DNA of 64,000 bases, taken from contig CP073042.1 in the NCBI GenBank assembly GCA_018114805.1, forward strand, positions 4,881,501 through 4,945,500. Reading direction: 5' to 3'. A model generated the notes under the pieces. That model ran no database searches. It was not told the origin of the DNA and worked only from the letters and a program-made list of their open reading frames with translations. The position numbers were made by a program, and so were the translations under genes. This document shows, in pieces, positions 56,141-64,000 of this stretch. The stretch is from Candidatus Streptomyces philanthi (GTDB taxonomy: Bacteria; Actinomycetota; Actinomycetes; Streptomycetales; Streptomycetaceae). Position 1 is the first letter of the stretch. Each line of letters starts with the position of its first letter.

Positions 56141-57226
<1,086 letters not shown>

Positions 57227-57640
57227 GGGCTTGCAGATCTTCAACGTATTGCTTTCGCTCTGGAGCTCGTTGCTGTGGTATACGCCTCCCGGTCGAGGCT
57301 CGTACCCAACTCGCTGCGGGGTTTCGGGTGTTGTGCCTGCATCTCGATGAGCGGCAACGGCGCCTGCTGAAGGCAGGGAAACAACGATCACTAAAGCCGA
57401 AAGAGACATACGTGGCACAGGTGAGCCACAAGTTCTGCATAGCTACACCTCAGCACGAGCACGACCCTGGCCACGGGCGCGGCACGACCCATGGCCCACT
57501 CCACCACTGCGAACTCCCGCGCGTCGCCTCCACTGCCGTCGACGCTCTGGATCTCTGACTCCGACGAGCTCAACGCCGCCCCTATCCCAGGCGCCGTGTT
57601 GCCTGCCTGGGCACGCGGTGCTTCCGGACCCAACACCACC
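57227..57640. other. Gene-free stretch
   Basis: About 410 bases between the protease remnant and a recombinase scrap. Only short frames; I see no recognisable product. Confidence 0.35.
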
Positions 57641-57730
57641 CACCGGCCGGCCCACACCTACGCGCTGCGCTCCTTCCTGTTCTGTGCCATCTGCCACCGC
57701 CGCATGTTCGGCAAGCTCCGCAGGGCACGC
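57641..57730 (+). pseudogene. Serine recombinase zinc-ribbon scrap
   Basis: HTYALRSFLFCAICHRRMFG then KLRRA matches the zinc beta-ribbon of large serine recombinases (aromatic-LR-S-hydrophobic-F-CxxC-RRMFG). The match ends within a base or two of the stop codon of the convergent tyrosine integrase. Confidence 0.5.
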
Positions 57731-58860
57731 TTATGCGACGATAGTGAGCGGGGTTTCCATGCGTTCCCAGGCTCCCAGCACGGCCTTGTGGGCGTCCGGC
57801 TGGAGGTGTGCGTAGCGCTGGGTGGTTTGGAAGCTCTCGTGGCCCAGAAGGTGTTGGACTTCGTAAAGCGAGACTCCCTTCTGTACCAGCCATGAGGCGC
57901 AGGTGTGGCGCATGGAGTGCGGCGGGTAGTGCGGGACGAGTTGCAACTCGCCGTCGTCGCCGAAGTGGTAGGCAGCCTCGACAGCAGGCCAACAGGTCTG
58001 CCGGCGCCAGTTGCTGTCGGCGAGGAGGCGTCCGGAGCGGCCCTTGGTGATGGTCGTGAAGACCACTGCGTCGCGGTCGAGCCGGTGGATGTGGCGTTGG
58101 GCCTCCAGTGCGTGGGGCGGGAGCGGGACTTCTCGGCGGCTCTTGGAGCTCTTGGGGTACTCTTTAATGCCGCTCTTGGTGTGGTGTTGACCTCCACTAC
58201 GAACAGGCGGGAGCGGCGAGTGTCGATGCGGTGGCGGTGCAGGCCGGAGAGTTCTCCCCAGCGCAGCCCGGTGTAGAAGCCGCGCAGGCACATCGTCCGC
58301 CAGGCAGGGGCGAGTCCGTCGAGGATGCTCTGCGCCTGGTCGGGCGTGAACCACTGCGGCGGTTTGACCGCGATGAGCGGTAGATCGAGACCGCGGCATG
58401 GGCTCACCGCGATCACATCGTTGTCGACCGCCGCGTGCATGATGGACGACGTCAGGTTGTAGGCCCGCTTGATCGCGGCAGTGCCTGCGCCCTTCTCGAC
58501 CAAGGAGCGGATCCAGCTCTGGACGTCCATGCGGGTGATGGCCCGCATTTGCCAGTTCGCCCAGTAGGGCATGACGTCGTTCTTGATGCTGGACCCGTCG
58601 CCCCGGAGGGTGTGGGTTTCGACGATGCGGGCGTTCCACCACCGATCGTGCCACTCGCGGAACGCGATCTCGCCGGCCCGCGGGTCGCGCATGCCGCCGC
58701 GGGCGAACTGGGTCTCCAGCTCGATGCCTCAGGCCCGCGCCTGGGCCTTGAGGGGGGAGGACGCGCTGAACCGGTCTCCGACCCGGTTACGAACGGTCGC
58801 CTGCCACTTGCCCGACTTCAGTTTTCGCAGGTACGCGGTACTACTCCTTTGTTCGGAAGC
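57731..58860 (-). pseudogene. Tyrosine recombinase/integrase of an integrative element, module 1
   Basis: Read from the minus strand: AYLRKLKSGKWQATVRNRVG (Arm-binding domain), TGA at 58729-58731, then IELETQFARGGMRDPRAGEI, core-binding domain, catalytic YTGLRWGEL (Arg I), a frameshift near 58190, then VPLPPHALEAQRHI, HSMRHTCASWL (His-Arg), LLGHESFQTTQRYAHL (His and Tyr nucleophile). All catalytic residues exist but two lesions break the frame. The start near 58860 is approximate. An excisionase gene lies just upstream. Confidence 0.72.
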
Positions 58861-58887
58861 GGTGAGGGCTGGACTGAGGGCGAGAGA

Positions 58888-59112
58888 TCACCGACGGGGA
58901 CGCGGGGAACCAACCAGCCTCCTGGCGATGAAGTCCTCGAGTCCGGCAGCAGGGACGCGGACGCGGGAGCGCTCCGACCCAGTACGTAGATCGACGACGG
59001 GGAGGTCTCCGGCGGCGATGAAGCGGTAGACGGTGCGGCGGTCGACGTCCAGGGCGGCGGCGACAGCGGGGATGGACAGCAAATGGGTGGGCGTGCGCGA
59101 GTCCTCGGACAC
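58888..59112 (-). CDS. Excisionase-type helix-turn-helix protein, module 1
   Basis: 74 residues: LLSIPAVAAALDVDRRTVYR is the winged HTH of excisionases, followed by FIAAGDLPVVDLRTGSERSR and VRVPAAGLEDFI. It binds DNA at the attachment site and directs excision by the neighbouring integrase. Intact, 30 bases upstream of the integrase region. Confidence 0.8.
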   Translation of the reverse strand: MSEDSRTPTHLLSIPAVAAALDVDRRTVYRFIAAGDLPVVDLRTGSERSRVRVPAAGLEDFIARRLVGSPRPRR

Positions 59113-59321
59113 AGAGAGGGAAGGGCCAAGCCAGCGAATGGATTCAGCCGGGCTGTCGGCGGTCCGTAGCGCAGGTCAACCCCCGGCCAGGGCAGTGGGA
59201 CCAGATCGCTGAGGGGCCGCGCCAGGTGACACGGCCACATGGAGCGGGGGCCGCCGACGTTCGGGATGCATGCGGCGGTGCTTCCGTGCTCGGATCGTGA
59301 GTCGGAGCGCGGGGCGGGAAA

Positions 59322-59990
59322 CTACCGCTCGGGAATGTCCGGAAGGCGCAGGACCTCTTCCAGGTGGTCCCAGTTGATCTCGATGTCTTCCTGTCGGAAG
59401 CGGTGCGGGTACCGCAACGCAATCCAGCTCGCACTCACGCCACCCCACTCGGCGACACCCCATGCAGGAACGCCCGCCTCGAGCCACCGGTCCAGACAGG
59501 AGTCGCGCAGGCTGGAGACCTGCTCCCCCAAGCCCGCCTGCACTTCGCCCGGGCGCAGCACCGCTTGGCGAGCTTGACTCCAGGCCCTCTTGTACTCGGA
59601 GGACGCCAACAGCCCACCCCGCTCGGCCGGGAACAGCAGATCTTCAGCTTCCAAACTCGCCTCGTCGATCCAGCGCCTCAGCACACCCACTATGTCAGGG
59701 GAGACAGCAACGCTCCGGCGCTCGCCGGCACGGACCAACACCTCTCTGAGCTCCCCGTCCGGGAGCGTCACGTCCTGCACTCGAAGCGAGGCCGCTTCGC
59801 CCTGCGGCAGCGCGGTCCTCGCCATGAAGGCGAGGAAAGGGAAAACGGCCCCCGAAGATGTCTCCTGAATCCACTCCAGAAGGGCGCGAACTTGGTCCGC
59901 AGAGAGCAAGGACGATTCGCCTATTGCCAGCTTCGACAAGCTATGACTCCTCACACGAGACATCGGGACGCGTCGGCATCCCCTGGTCAT
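59322..59990 (-). CDS. Tyrosine-recombinase-like protein lacking catalytic residues
   Basis: 222 residues, intact, covering only the catalytic half of the fold: LSADQVRALLEWIQE, ARTALPQGEAASLRVQDVTL, RSVAVSPDIVGVLRRWIDEA, LLFPAERGGLLASSEYKRAW, SSLRDSCLDRWLEAGVPAWG and VAEWGGVSASWIALRYPHRF. Compared with the element integrase at 60536 (FAGLRPEEAVGLRV, YDLRHTCLTTWL, WADNSVPVLLTIYARCI), the first catalytic Arg is replaced (TALPQGEA) and the region before Tyr is altered. It probably cannot recombine; a DNA-binding regulatory role is possible. Confidence 0.6.
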   Translation of the reverse strand: MTRGCRRVPMSRVRSHSLSKLAIGESSLLSADQVRALLEWIQETSSGAVFPFLAFMARTALPQGEAASLRVQDVTLPDGELREVLVRAGERRSVAVSPDIVGVLRRWIDEASLEAEDLLFPAERGGLLASSEYKRAWSQARQAVLRPGEVQAGLGEQVSSLRDSCLDRWLEAGVPAWGVAEWGGVSASWIALRYPHRFRQEDIEINWDHLEEVLRLPDIPER

Positions 59991-59991
59991 T

Positions 59992-60050
59992 CAATGGTCT
60001 GGAGAAGGGCCGGTTTGGCCAACCGGCGATCGACGGCTATGTTGCGCCCG
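59992..60050. repeat. Leader repeat copy A, upstream of the recombinase-like gene
   Basis: CAATGGTCT, a palindromic block CCGGTTTGGCCAACCGG, then CGGCTATGTTGCGC. It starts two bases upstream of the ATG of the minus-strand gene at 59990. Copy B is at 62438. The palindrome could be an operator. Confidence 0.55.
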
Positions 60051-60228
60051 TGACGTGCCTCTCGCGGTCCCGGCTGATGCGCAGAGAGCAGGTTCTGCTT
60101 TCCCAAGACCGTTCTAGGTTTGCTTCCTTCGGCGAGTTAATCCAGTCCGTATGGGACTCAATGTGTCTGCTGTCGGCGAATCTTCCCGAACCCACCCATA
60201 TCTGCCCCTCGACGGACAGGAAACGCGA

Positions 60229-60288
60229 GGATAGAGCAGGCGCCTTCTAAGCGCTTGGCCGCAGGTTCGAGTCCTGCCGGGGGCGCCA
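60229..60288 (+). other. 3' half of a tRNA-Arg(UCU) gene, probable attachment site
   Basis: GGATAGAGCA (3' side of the D-arm), anticodon stem GGCGC / GCGCT around loop CTTCTAA (anticodon TCT), a five-base variable loop, T-arm GCAGG TTCGAGT CCTGC, then the acceptor strand CGGGGGC and GCCA. The 5' D-stem half and a matching position 7 are missing, so this is not a full tRNA. It is the kind of 3' tRNA segment left at one end of an integrated element. It lies 250 bases from the stop of integrase 2. Confidence 0.62.
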
Positions 60289-60355
60289 CTGGCATCACGC
60301 CAGCTAGGCGATGTTTGCGCAGGTCAGGCTATGTCTCGCTGGCCTCTCAAGAGAA

Positions 60356-60392
60356 CCGGACTCGGACCCTCCGCTGGGGGGTCTGAGTCCGG
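60356..60392. terminator. Hairpin terminator beside the attachment site
   Basis: CCGGACTCGGACCC at 60356-60369 pairs with GGGTCTGAGTCCGG at 60379-60392 (one wobble pair). Confidence 0.65.
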
Positions 60393-60494
60393 CTGACGCC
60401 GACTAAAACCGAGTTTCTACGAGTGTCCGTCCCAGATACGTCCCACAAAATCAGAGCCCTGGCGGCCCCCCCCCGGCCACCCCGACACAGCAAA

Positions 60495-60533
60495 GCGGCC
60501 CCGGAGCCCGCTCTTCGCGGGGCCCGGGGCGCT
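60495..60533 (-). terminator. Hairpin at the end of the integrase gene
   Basis: GCCCCGGAGCCCGC pairs with GCGGGGCCCGGGGC around a short TCTT-type loop (two mismatches), immediately after the integrase stop on the minus strand. Confidence 0.6.
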
Positions 60534-60535
60534 CC

Positions 60536-61929
60536 TCAAGCCGCCACCTTTGGCAGGTCTTGGACGTCTTCGGTCCGTTTGAGGTAGTCATCCACTTGGC
60601 CGACGATGCAGCGCGCGTAGATCGTCAACAGGACGGGCACGCTGTTGTCCGCCCATTCTGCAACCTGGGCTGGTGGAATGCCGCTGTTGAGCCACGTCGT
60701 GAGGCAGGTGTGGCGCAGGTCGTATACGCGCTTGCCGGTTGGCGTCTTGAGTTCGTGTTCGGACAGAACCTCCTCGCGGGCCTTGGCCCAGACGCGCCGG
60801 AAGACGGAGCCTGCGAGCATGCCGCCCTTCTCCCCGGGGAAGAGGAGGTCGGCAGGCTTGAGGTCGTACTCCTTGATGATCTCTCGGAGGATCACGACGA
60901 GGGTGGGGTGGATGGGGACGGTGCGTGTGTCGCCCTCGCCCCGACCCTTGAGGTCGCGTTCCTCGTGCACCTCACCGGTGTCGGTCCACTGGCTGCCGAC
61001 TTCGGGCCGCGCCTCGTGGACGAGGAACTCGCCCCAGCCGGTCTCCGGCAGCGTCGCGTCTCCGACACGAAGACCGACGGCCTCTTCGGGGCGCAGCCCC
61101 GCGAAGTAGAGGGTCGCGAAGAAGGCCCGGTACAAGGGTCCACGTCGCGGACGCTTGCCTATCCAGTCCAGCATCTTCGCGACCAGGTCGCGGTTCAGCA
61201 GGCACCGTTTGTCGATGGCCTGCGCCACCTTCGGAGCGACGCGCTCGCCCTTGCCCTTCGGGAGCGGGTTGGCCTTCAGGCAGTTGTGTCTGATCGCGTA
61301 GCCCATGACCAGGTTCATGATCCGCTCGTTGCGGGTGACCGAACTGGCGGCTGCCGCAGTACCATCCAGTCGGGTGCTGAGCGCTGTGACGACCTTGTCG
61401 ATGTTCTCGGCCTTCTCCCAGGCGCTCATGGGGAGGGAGTTGCGCCTGACCCAGGCGAGTATCGTCTGGATTTCCCCTGGGACGGGCTTGTCGGGATCGT
61501 TACGTCGGTTGACGTTGAAGCCGTACTCTCGCAGCGCTGTGCGAACCTTCACCTGCTCGAAGTGGGCCGGTGGCGTCGTGCGCAGCAAGGCGATGGTCGC
61601 GGACGTCAGCGCCTTGGCCATGTTCTTGCGGGTGTTACCGGAGGCGCGCGCCTACTTCCAGTCGACGCACTCGACCGTGAACTGGAACCAGTTCACCTCG
61701 GAGGCCTTGGGCGACCATGAGATCGGCAGGCCAAGTTCGATGTCGAATGGCTCGCGCTTCCGGTGCGCGGCCATGAGCTTGGAGCGTTCGTCGTCTGCTA
61801 CCGCGCTTTTTTGTACGTTTTGCTGTGCTTCTTGTGGGCGACCTTCCACCGGAAGGTGTAGGAATGACCCTTGGCTCGCTCGTTCGTTTCGATCGGATAG
61901 AAACGAACGTCCAACGAGCTGGTGTCCAT
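60536..61929 (-). pseudogene. Tyrosine integrase of an integrative element, module 2, with frameshift and in-frame TAG
   Basis: ATG at 61929 overlaps the xis stop by one base and opens MDTSSLDVRFYPIETNE then YTFRWKVAHKKHSKTY, the AP2-like arm domain. In the A6 run near 61805 the frame shifts to ADDERSKLMAAHRKREPFDI and FTVECVDWK, then TAG at 61652-61654 where homologs have Trp (VDMKWPHAS-like). The rest is open for 361 residues: RASGNTRKN, ALSTRLDGTAAAASSVTRNE, FAGLRPEEAVGLRV (Arg I), YDLRHTCLTTWLNSGIPPAQ (Arg II) and LLTIYARCI (Tyr). The Asn in WADNSV replaces the usual His. Confidence 0.8.
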
Positions 61930-62126
61930 CAAGCTGTTTCCTCACACTCCATAAGCCAGTTCTCGAAATCTGCGCGCCGTATGCGGAGCGACCCGTTGGG
62001 TAGCCGGATGCAGCGCGGTCCGCGTCCTTTTTGTCGCCAGTAGTAGAAGGTGGAACGAGTGATTTGCAGCTCGGCGCATACTTCGTCCACGGTCAACTTC
62101 TGAGCGAGCCTCGTTGCTACCGCCAT
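61929..62126 (-). CDS. Excisionase (AlpA/MerR-type HTH), module 2
   Basis: 65 residues starting MAVATRLAQKLTVDEVCAEL, then QITRSTFYYWRQKGRGPRCI and RLPNGSLRIRRADFENWL: a textbook actinobacterial element excisionase. Its TGA overlaps the integrase ATG by one base, so the two are coupled. Intact. Confidence 0.88.
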   Translation of the reverse strand: MAVATRLAQKLTVDEVCAELQITRSTFYYWRQKGRGPRCIRLPNGSLRIRRADFENWLMECEETA

Positions 62127-63009
62127 GTGCTCATCACCCTCGCGAGGTGACCGGGGAGGTCGGCAGCCTCCGCGAGGGGCCGGGTTGCTGGGCACGAATA
62201 AGGGCAGGGTGTGTCACGGGTCGGTACATCGGTGGAATTTCCTTGCTCAGGTACGAGGAGCGACGGAGATTGCGACAGCACAACCTCACTCGATGTGCGC
62301 GAGGGCGATCGCCGGCAGGTGATCCGTGCGGCTCATCACAGGGCCGCCGTGGCAGAACTGCTCCGCCCCCTCGACTGTGCAGAATCGTCTGCGTTCGCCA
62401 TGGCCCCACCGCCAAGCGCAGCCGAACGCGAACACCCCAATGGTCTTTGCGATCGCCGGTCTGGTTAGCCGGCGTCGTCGGCTATGTTGCGCGTCGATCC
62501 CGAGTGCGCCCCTGTCGCAGCCGCGCAGAAAGCCAGCTGACGCGAATTCAGTGCTGAAGCCTCGCCCTACGAGACGGGCCTTGGCTGAACCGTTCTCCGT
62601 GAGCCTGTTGAAGCGACGCGCAGTAACCTCCTCACGAAGGTGAAGTGTGCGCAAAGCAAGGCGAGCGGACCGAACGTCGCATTTCAGAGAGGGCGCTCGT
62701 GAATAGGAACGGGGCAGCGAGATAACGCACTTGGTTAGGTGCTACTCCTGGCGCCAATCTGCTGCAACCCCGACATCTGACCTCATGTTTTCCCGCCAAT
62801 TACAGATTGGCATGGCCTCGGACGGGTGCTCAAGTCCTCTGAGAATTTCCCTCGTCTGCCGTAAGCGAATACCGACGCTGGGTCGAAGTATTCACGGCTC
62901 TCGACTCAACGAGAAGGTGGGAGCGATGCGCAGGCGCTGTTCGAGAGCAAGGCATCAGTTCGCTAAGGGCTGTACCGTGACTGCTTTTCACGGATGAGAT
63001 GATCTCGCC
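62127..63009. other. Unassigned stretch containing leader repeat copy B
   Basis: About 880 bases upstream of the excisionase. I recognise no gene. Frames on both strands near 62211-62654 are open but carry no known pattern. The promoter of the xis-int pair should lie in the first 200 bases. Confidence 0.35.
62438..62495. repeat. Leader repeat copy B
   Basis: CAATGGTCT, then GCCGGTCTGGTTAGCCGGC, then CGGCTATGTTGCGCG. It matches copy A at 59992 over about 58 bases, with GGCTATGTTGCGC identical, but no recombinase-like gene follows it. Confidence 0.55.
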
Positions 63010-63115
63010 GTGTTTGGTGTGATCACAGCGTCGGAGCCTTCCTGGATGGCCCCGTTCACCGGGCTGAGCCCGCGCCAGTTCGGCAAGCTGATCACCGCGC
63101 TCCGGCGCGAGAACC
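63010..63115 (+). pseudogene. IS5-like transposase N-terminal scrap
   Basis: VFGVITASEPSWMAPFTGLS then PRQFGKLITALRRE matches the N-terminal helix-turn-helix part of an IS5-group transposase. Nothing further in frame. Confidence 0.55.
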
Positions 63116-63313
63116 GGATCGAGGGTGCGGCCGCACGCCGTGAAGCCCGTGCCCTTACCCAAGTACGGCATTCCCGCTGGCCGGCTGTGGTGAGGATGAG
63201 GGGCGTCGGCCACCGACGTCGCTGGGCGCCGTATCGCTCAGGGCTTCACTCGTGCGGGTGAGCGCTAGCGCATGCTCCGAGCTGCGGCCTGCTGTCCAGG
63301 TAAAACCACAGGG

Positions 63314-63965
63314 GTGAAGAAAATTCTCGCGCCCGGTCTGGGCGCTCTGTGTCTTGCACTGCTGCCCCTCATCCTCCCAGGCCGCTGAGGTGCTCACGCT
63401 CAGCGACGCGGTCGGCCGTATCAAGACCGCTGAAGAGGACCGCGTCGGATACACCCGCTCCTCCTTCAAACACTGGAACGCCGGCGAAGACCGCGCCGAC
63501 GGATGCAACACCCGCAACGAGGTGCTGCTGGCCGAGGCCATCGTCGCGCCGGCCGTCGGCCCCGGCTGCAAGATCTCTGGCGGCACGTGGCGCTCGTACT
63601 ACGACGGGCAAGAGGTCAACGGGCCCGCTGGCCTGGACATCGACCACATGGTGCACCTGGCCGAGGCGTGGGACTCGGGGGCCTCGGCTTGGACGCCGGC
63701 CAAGCGCGAGGCGTACGCGAATGATCAGCGCGCAGCTACTTCTCTCGTCGCGGTAACCGCCCGAACCAACAGGCAAAAGGCGGACCAGGAGCCCGCCGAC
63801 TGGCTCCCGCCGGTGCCGGAGGTGCGGTACCGTTACGCGGCGGAGTGGGTCTCCACCAAGCTGCGCTGGCAGCTGAGTGCGGACCAGCCCGAGCTCGAAG
63901 CTCTCAAGGTCTTCGCCGAGGGCGCGTGCGAGGACACCGTGGTCCAGTACACCGTGGTCAAGTAG
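63314..63965 (+). pseudogene. Secreted HNH endonuclease family protein (DUF1524-like), frameshift in the signal peptide
   Basis: GTG 63314 opens VKKILAPGLGALCLALLPL, a signal peptide core. After it the frame hits TGA, while the mature part continues in another frame as PSSSQAAEVLTLSDAVGRIK. The rest is intact: YYDGQEVNGPAGLDIDHMVH then LAEAWDSGAS carries the HNH-like DxDH core, and NDQRAATSLVAVTARTNRQK follows. Homologs are extracellular nucleases of about 210 residues. One base near 63365 repairs it. Ends with TAG. Confidence 0.78.
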
Positions 63966-64000
63966 CTCGGCGTGCTCTGCCGTGGGCCGAGAAGGTGAGC

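Follow-up and report, generated by a model that had tools for sequence, protein, structure and literature searches.

Why would a genome keep an open reading frame with the fold of a tyrosine recombinase and an incomplete active site next to broken integrase genes? This question is raised by a locus of Candidatus Streptomyces philanthi lying in the window analysed here, i.e., the whole stretch of 64,000 nucleotides that forms bases 4881501-4945500 of a 7.34-Mb genome. An earlier note, made from the letters alone, described an intact protein of 222 residues. The open frame of 222 aa does exist (59322-59990, minus strand), but we favour a shorter product of the gene, which we call SHORT, starting at the TTG at 59939 and 205 aa long. 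This choice rests on the conservation of the DNA upstream, which in relatives continues 5' of the ATG as DNA blocks, on the ribosome-binding motif GAGGAG and on the start position common to the relatives, most often GAGGAG followed by TTG, GTG or ATG. Across the family the length is 205-234 aa. The features of the locus are collected in the table.

Table. Features of the SHORT locus, in positions of the window.
Feature	Position	Strand	Basis or remark
int-362-type integrase of the SHORT operon, broken	57731..58692	-	matches an intact relative in two pieces only, with TGA inside one
xis-like HTH gene of the SHORT operon, 74 aa	58888..59112	-	HTH_17, E 9.4e-10; relatives
SHORT, very probably dead tyrosine-recombinase catalytic domain, 205 aa	59322..59939 (coding 59325-59939 + stop; TTG start)	-	Pfam, start alignment, fold, catalytic table
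Shine-Dalgarno GAGGAG, 7 nt before TTG 59939	59947..59952	-	sequence; kept in alignment
Leader with 25-bp dyad, inner palindrome 60010-60026	59993..60050	-	pattern in 110 of 295 genomes
Conserved block between core and leader	60107..60182	-	alignment of 20 loci
60-nt copy of tRNA-Arg(TCT), D-loop to CCA	60229..60288	+	between SHORT and right-hand integrase; absent from the earlier note
Recombination core, 7-bp overlap CTTCTAA (minus strand TTAGAAG)	60244-60250	+	within the tRNA-Arg(TCT) copy
int464-type (tRNA-Arg) integrase, broken	60536..61945	-	split across two frames
xis-like HTH gene of the int464 pair, 88 aa	61929..62195	-	HTH_17, E 1e-11
Second leader, diverged, upstream of the int464 pair	about 62438..62495	-	shares 45 of 61 columns with the first leader

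That SHORT keeps the catalytic fold of the recombinases, as had been proposed, was confirmed in two ways. It matches the Pfam family Phage_integrase (E 4.6e-10), and structure prediction, the comparison with integrase that the note had called for, gave a tyrosine-recombinase catalytic domain: the best AlphaFold2 model, built with 25 aligned members, had a mean pLDDT of 80.4 and a pTM of 0.80 (the four others had pLDDT 52-60), and its top match among solved structures was XerA (5hxy_D, Z 17.7, rmsd 3.4, 173 aligned residues). The catalytic domain accounts for the alignment of all 205 residues, and neither an arm-binding nor a core-binding domain is present. The first catalytic arginine (Arg I), already noticed as missing, is a proline in the window protein, which retains Arg II and the tyrosine and has no catalytic lysine aligned. 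Among the 25 members, Arg I is lost in 17, including that of the window, and kept in eight, so the same residues are not always missing at this position; at another position they are, since the histidine after Arg II is replaced by Asp or Glu in all 25. Arg II is conserved throughout, the tyrosine is present in 21 and exchanged for Phe in four, and a catalytic lysine is aligned in none, with the reservation that the loop alignment is uncertain and that a lysine lies nearby in L038 and L040. The full-length integrases of the int464 type possess Arg I, Lys, Arg II and Tyr in 12/12 rows and the histidine in 11/12; rows with fewer than 250 aligned residues were unused, one gene is counted twice (L021, L049), and L020 itself has Asp after Arg II. 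We did not count the first-His and H/W positions against SHORT because they are non-canonical in int464 too. Thus, of what characterizes an active tyrosine recombinase, SHORT has the catalytic-domain fold, and it lacks the complete set of Arg I, Lys, Arg II and Tyr as well as the N-terminal core-binding domain; it is almost certainly, or at least very probably, unable to catalyse recombination. The family is heterogeneous in charge: the window clade is acidic (pI 4.5-5.0, 14 members), and a sub-clade including L038-L044 is near neutral (-4 to +2) and keeps Arg I in six of its seven members.

An incomplete active site could simply be the mark of a decaying gene. We compared dN/dS in seven SHORT pairs with a null obtained by dealing the same substitutions randomly over the gene (500 draws per pair): the observed values of 0.10-0.45 were below the null medians of 0.78-0.88 in all seven, and from 0 to 8 of the 500 draws were as low. 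The window copy gave 0.27-0.45 against 13 relatives and L035 gave 0.22-0.33 against 13 others. These low values, together with the Asp or Glu after Arg II common to all members, speak against random decay of SHORT, and the view of a repurposed, non-decayed recombinase is borne out by purifying selection, by joint inheritance with xis and int and by the very probable loss of catalysis. Individual copies are nevertheless broken or fragmentary (L045, L051 and L061, with a remnant in L161); L045, L046, L051 and L061 were omitted from the alignment A1 as broken or fragmentary. In S. griseofuscus, two copies of the unit (L056 and L061) lie on one chromosome, the second with truncated SHORT and int.

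For SHORT, fifteen of 295 genomes of the genus, including that of the window, hold a match at E <= 1e-37 (frames of 212-294 aa), and the best eight frames from 245 genomes of the order (E <= 1e-68, 213-286 aa) all belong to the window's genus; those relatives that carry a name are Streptomyces. Other collections gave matches in two phage records (23.7% identity) and four plasmid records (25-38%), and a search of viral contigs found none. In the tree, the SHORT proteins form one group with a support of 93/80, just under the star threshold of treekit; the int464 integrases adjoin this group (74/98), and the integrases of SHORT's own operons, int-362 and int-390, are placed far from it (100/98). 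From this phylogeny, SHORT appears to have descended from integrases of the int464 type, specific for tRNA-Arg(TCT). This parent family integrates at tRNA-Arg(TCT), as a gene or copy of that tRNA lies beside most long int464-type matches: in 13 such loci, a near-complete tRNA gene was found 214-270 nt from the int end in seven and at 1.2 kb in one, a copy of 58-59 nt in four (of which L021 and L049 are one gene) and nothing in one.

SHORT is the first gene of a leader-SHORT-xis-int operon. We read 29 loci, some of them near-identical (L033/L057; L056/L061 are one genome), so that counts are not numbers of independent events; L052, L055 and L062 repeat the contigs of L034, L032 and L046 and were not counted. 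The leader is present in 26 of these loci and an integrase directly follows in 28, 20 times of the int-362 type (at least 83% identity per matched piece) and eight times of another type (24-28%), usually with a xis-like HTH gene in between. SHORT had been described as lying between two broken integrase modules; both integrase genes are indeed broken, but the left module is the rest of SHORT's own operon. Other strains have intact units, such as those at L035 and L033. Many loci have a convergent gene of about 480 aa after int, and a second att copy was sought within the fetched loci and not found, which leaves the idea of a 2.6-kb minimal mobile element unsupported. The left flanks of L042 and L043 matched only themselves apart from short weak matches, L043 also having partial copies elsewhere in its own genome.

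The palindrome CCGGTT-N5-AACCGG of the leader is where the note had placed it. Its repetition at 62438 is also real in that a related leader precedes the other xis-int pair, but this second leader is a diverged copy. The dyad occurs in 110 of 295 genomes, and since the backwards-read control gave 0 in every row, the pattern is more than chance. Behind 30 leaders that we read, the genes were xis-int, XRE (L080, L084, L085) or others. Furthermore, of 20 int-362 units selected from genomes in which no close relative of SHORT was known, 17 have the leader 388-1094 nt before int. This distribution speaks against the leader as a private operator of SHORT, and the acidity of the window clade and its lack of arm- and core-binding domains likewise count against SHORT targeting it. 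The leader is rather a shared control site, probably a general promoter or operator of xis-int operons read by another regulator. Six of 43 distinct leaders show a change on both sides at one arm position, a pattern that would fit an operator bound by a dimer or a hairpin; a search for RNA families in 57000-64000 returned none at E <= 0.1. The form ATCGCCGGTT-N5-AACCGGC is widespread in Streptomyces xis-int operons, with up to six per strand count in one genome, and the other strand carries a conserved TATGTT resembling a -10 box. Small XRE-type regulator genes adjoin the leader, after it in L163 and L164 and upstream in L154, L162, L165 and L166; these regulators are candidate leader-binding proteins.

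What distinguishes the SHORT units is instead the tRNA-like core 5' of the leader. It reads ATAGAGCAGGCGC-TTAGAAG-GCGCCTGCTCTRT or close, and the TTAGAAG overlap is intact in 24 of the 29 loci. Its left arm is a palindrome (at least 9 of 13) in 16 loci, the 3' half of tRNA-Arg in five and other sequence in three; L048 was placed with the palindromic loci (10 of 13), although the inner part of its left arm equals the 3' half of the tRNA. Six further loci comprised five SHORT units, all with core, leader and xis, and one (L212) that was not such a unit. Around 56 oriented leaders elsewhere, the core accompanied all four with SHORT and one (L088) of the 52 without SHORT recognised within 1 kb; within 330 nt, it was found at none of the 17 leaders of the SHORT-poor int-362 units and at none of three int464 leaders. 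The conserved block between core and leader, which was not seen at the same 17 int-362 leaders, possibly contains arm sites of the recombinase or of Xis.

Several loci suggest that int464-type elements have joined at this core. One side of the tRNA copy in the window runs into the SHORT arm and the other into the int464 arm. The native tRNA-Arg(TCT) gene of this genome, which is intact, lies 3.8 Mb away. In six loci (that of the window, L033, L049, L053, L059 and L200), the junction with a tRNA-Arg half falls exactly on the overlap of the SHORT core, with int464 directly beside it in the first three of these and reduced to a remnant in L059; L053 and G432 have a gene of the int464 type at a distance of about 6 kb. 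If int464 integrated at the core, a reciprocal junction is expected in which the palindromic left half meets the int464 far arm. Searching 16 genomes for the palindromic left half with at most one mismatch gave ten matches, of which eight were SHORT loci; the other two (G000 at 6723703 and G099 contig 913) run, as judged by eye, into int464-like far arms with GTGGGAC-TATGTGGGAT repeats, and the G099 junction also carries the VSGLKLF gene known from int464 far ends. The reciprocal junction was thus found in two (G000, G099) of the four searched genomes with a tRNA half at the SHORT core, and in G092 and G432 it was sought and none was found. The two junctions of G000 are 1.78 Mb apart, which requires a later rearrangement or an independent event. 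SHORT itself is not the usual far-end gene of int464 elements: in 14 far-end loci (+-1.5 kb), 13 had the core and SHORT adjoined none. The VSGLKLF gene, of about 296 aa, lies just inside the far ends at L243, L245, L246 (truncated) and L261, with a longer frame in L243. The G000 site (L264, C1:6723703-6723720) also has a leader and a third, broken integrase as neighbours.

The reading we favour, to which we give somewhat less than an even chance, is that SHORT is an int464-type catalytic domain kept in its operon because it modulates recombination at the core by protein contact. It starts from what the sequences themselves show: active-site residues are lost, the proteins form a single conserved family within an operon, this operon is linked to the core, and the junctions are present. 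An integrase specific for tRNA-Arg(TCT) would have shed its DNA-binding domains together with active-site residues and been kept as the first gene of leader-SHORT-xis-int operons, whose start adjoins a tRNA-derived core, usually with near-palindromic arms round TTAGAAG, where int464-type elements have been joined. SHORT would then use the recombinase interface that it shares with integrases to enter or block their assemblies and thereby restrain or bias recombination at this core. Contact with integrase protomers is favoured by the linkage to the core, the descent, the recombinase domain kept with no DNA-binding domain and the acidity of the window clade. Against the model count the operon partners, which are of the int-362 or int-390 type and not int464, the near-neutral sub-clade that mostly keeps Arg I, the missing junctions in G092 and G432, the distance between those of G000 and the tree support of 93/80. 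A further point against it is that an int464 integrase need not be present, given that some SHORT genomes, e.g., G104, have no other SHORT match at E <= 0.001. SHORT possibly acts as a directionality factor; it differs from the Xis type, which comprises small wHTH proteins or other DNA-binding proteins needed for excision, in having the recombinase catalytic fold, and its operon has a separate HTH xis-like gene.

Dead recombinases with other roles offer alternatives. GinC (of GInts) and Tfp (of SEs) also combine the recombinase fold with a lack of catalytic residues, an operon with integrases and a place at an element end, and they are reported as needed for recombination. By analogy, SHORT might be an essential non-catalytic subunit of the recombination machine of its own operon, serving excision or integration by int-362 or int-390. 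We find this rather unlikely: the nearly constant integrase downstream speaks for it, but int-362 relatives occur in the 20 fetched units without a close SHORT relative, SHORT is distant from int-362 and int-390 in the tree, and it has no core-binding domain. GinC and Tfp are described with a core-site-binding domain, and Tfp homologs below 550 aa were filtered out as truncated by the authors, whereas SHORT is a catalytic domain alone. The operons differ as well (intA-tfp-intB-srap or ginABCD, that is, two catalytic integrases, a dead one and GinD/Srap, versus SHORT-xis-int with one integrase), and tfp-srap blocks are reported from Gammaproteobacteria only, GInts from Gamma- and Betaproteobacteria. 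MrpR/YopR of SPbeta and SroF of phi3T, which likewise have the recombinase fold without catalysis and are among the fold matches of SHORT (Z 11.2-11.5), would suggest a DNA-binding repressor of the leader or core. MrpR reportedly lacks, as SHORT does, Arg I and a His while retaining the Tyr; it no longer works as a recombinase and acts as a repressor (PMC10516654). SHORT moreover holds the first place after the leader, where L163 and L164 carry an XRE gene and other units have one just upstream. Such a role is nonetheless improbable, since the leader is common where SHORT is unseen, the window clade is acidic, and MrpR, described as a phage master repressor with core-binding and catalytic domains (PMC10516654), keeps the domain that SHORT, found in xis-int operons, lacks.

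Slightly more improbable still is that SHORT is an int464 relic, a passenger next to the core. The broken copies would agree with this, as would the broken int of the window unit and the window's dN/dS, somewhat above that of L035; against it stand the dN/dS below the null in every pair, the start, ribosome site and length common to the copies, and the active-site changes shared by all 25 members. Each known system has a defining feature (core-binding domain or operon make-up) that SHORT lacks, which makes SHORT a member of none of them, and we recognised no description of the SHORT protein among the papers listed by searches of the open-access literature; besides the papers cited above and below, PMC10214605, PMC5385486, PMC3218068 and PMC4057263 were consulted.

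The dead recombinases known as repressor (MrpR) or needed partners (GinC, Tfp) are described with a DNA-binding domain. A conserved version that consists of the catalytic domain alone and is linked to a landing site for other elements would give nature a compact means of controlling integrases. It could also explain how Streptomyces elements are stacked and held. Elements with different integrases are reported to be stacked at one tRNA-Arg site in Streptomyces (PMC9513070); here, in contrast, the docking core is a near-palindromic part-tRNA copy that lies apart from the tRNA gene and accompanies SHORT. A bolder form of the modulator model, which we hold to be unlikely, would make SHORT and its tRNA-anticodon-like core a cassette that controls traffic, joining on one element a landing site for tRNA-Arg elements with a dead integrase copy that acts in trans and decides whether they dock, stay or leave. 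If true, SHORT would be an integrase-derived anti-integrase entering the synaptic complexes of tRNA-Arg-specific elements.

Two further genes on the plus strand flank the locus in the window. At 56459-57150, split over two frames, lies what we take from its motifs to be a trypsin-like serine protease, and 63354-63965 encodes a protein with a match to GmrSD_C (E 1.3e-5).
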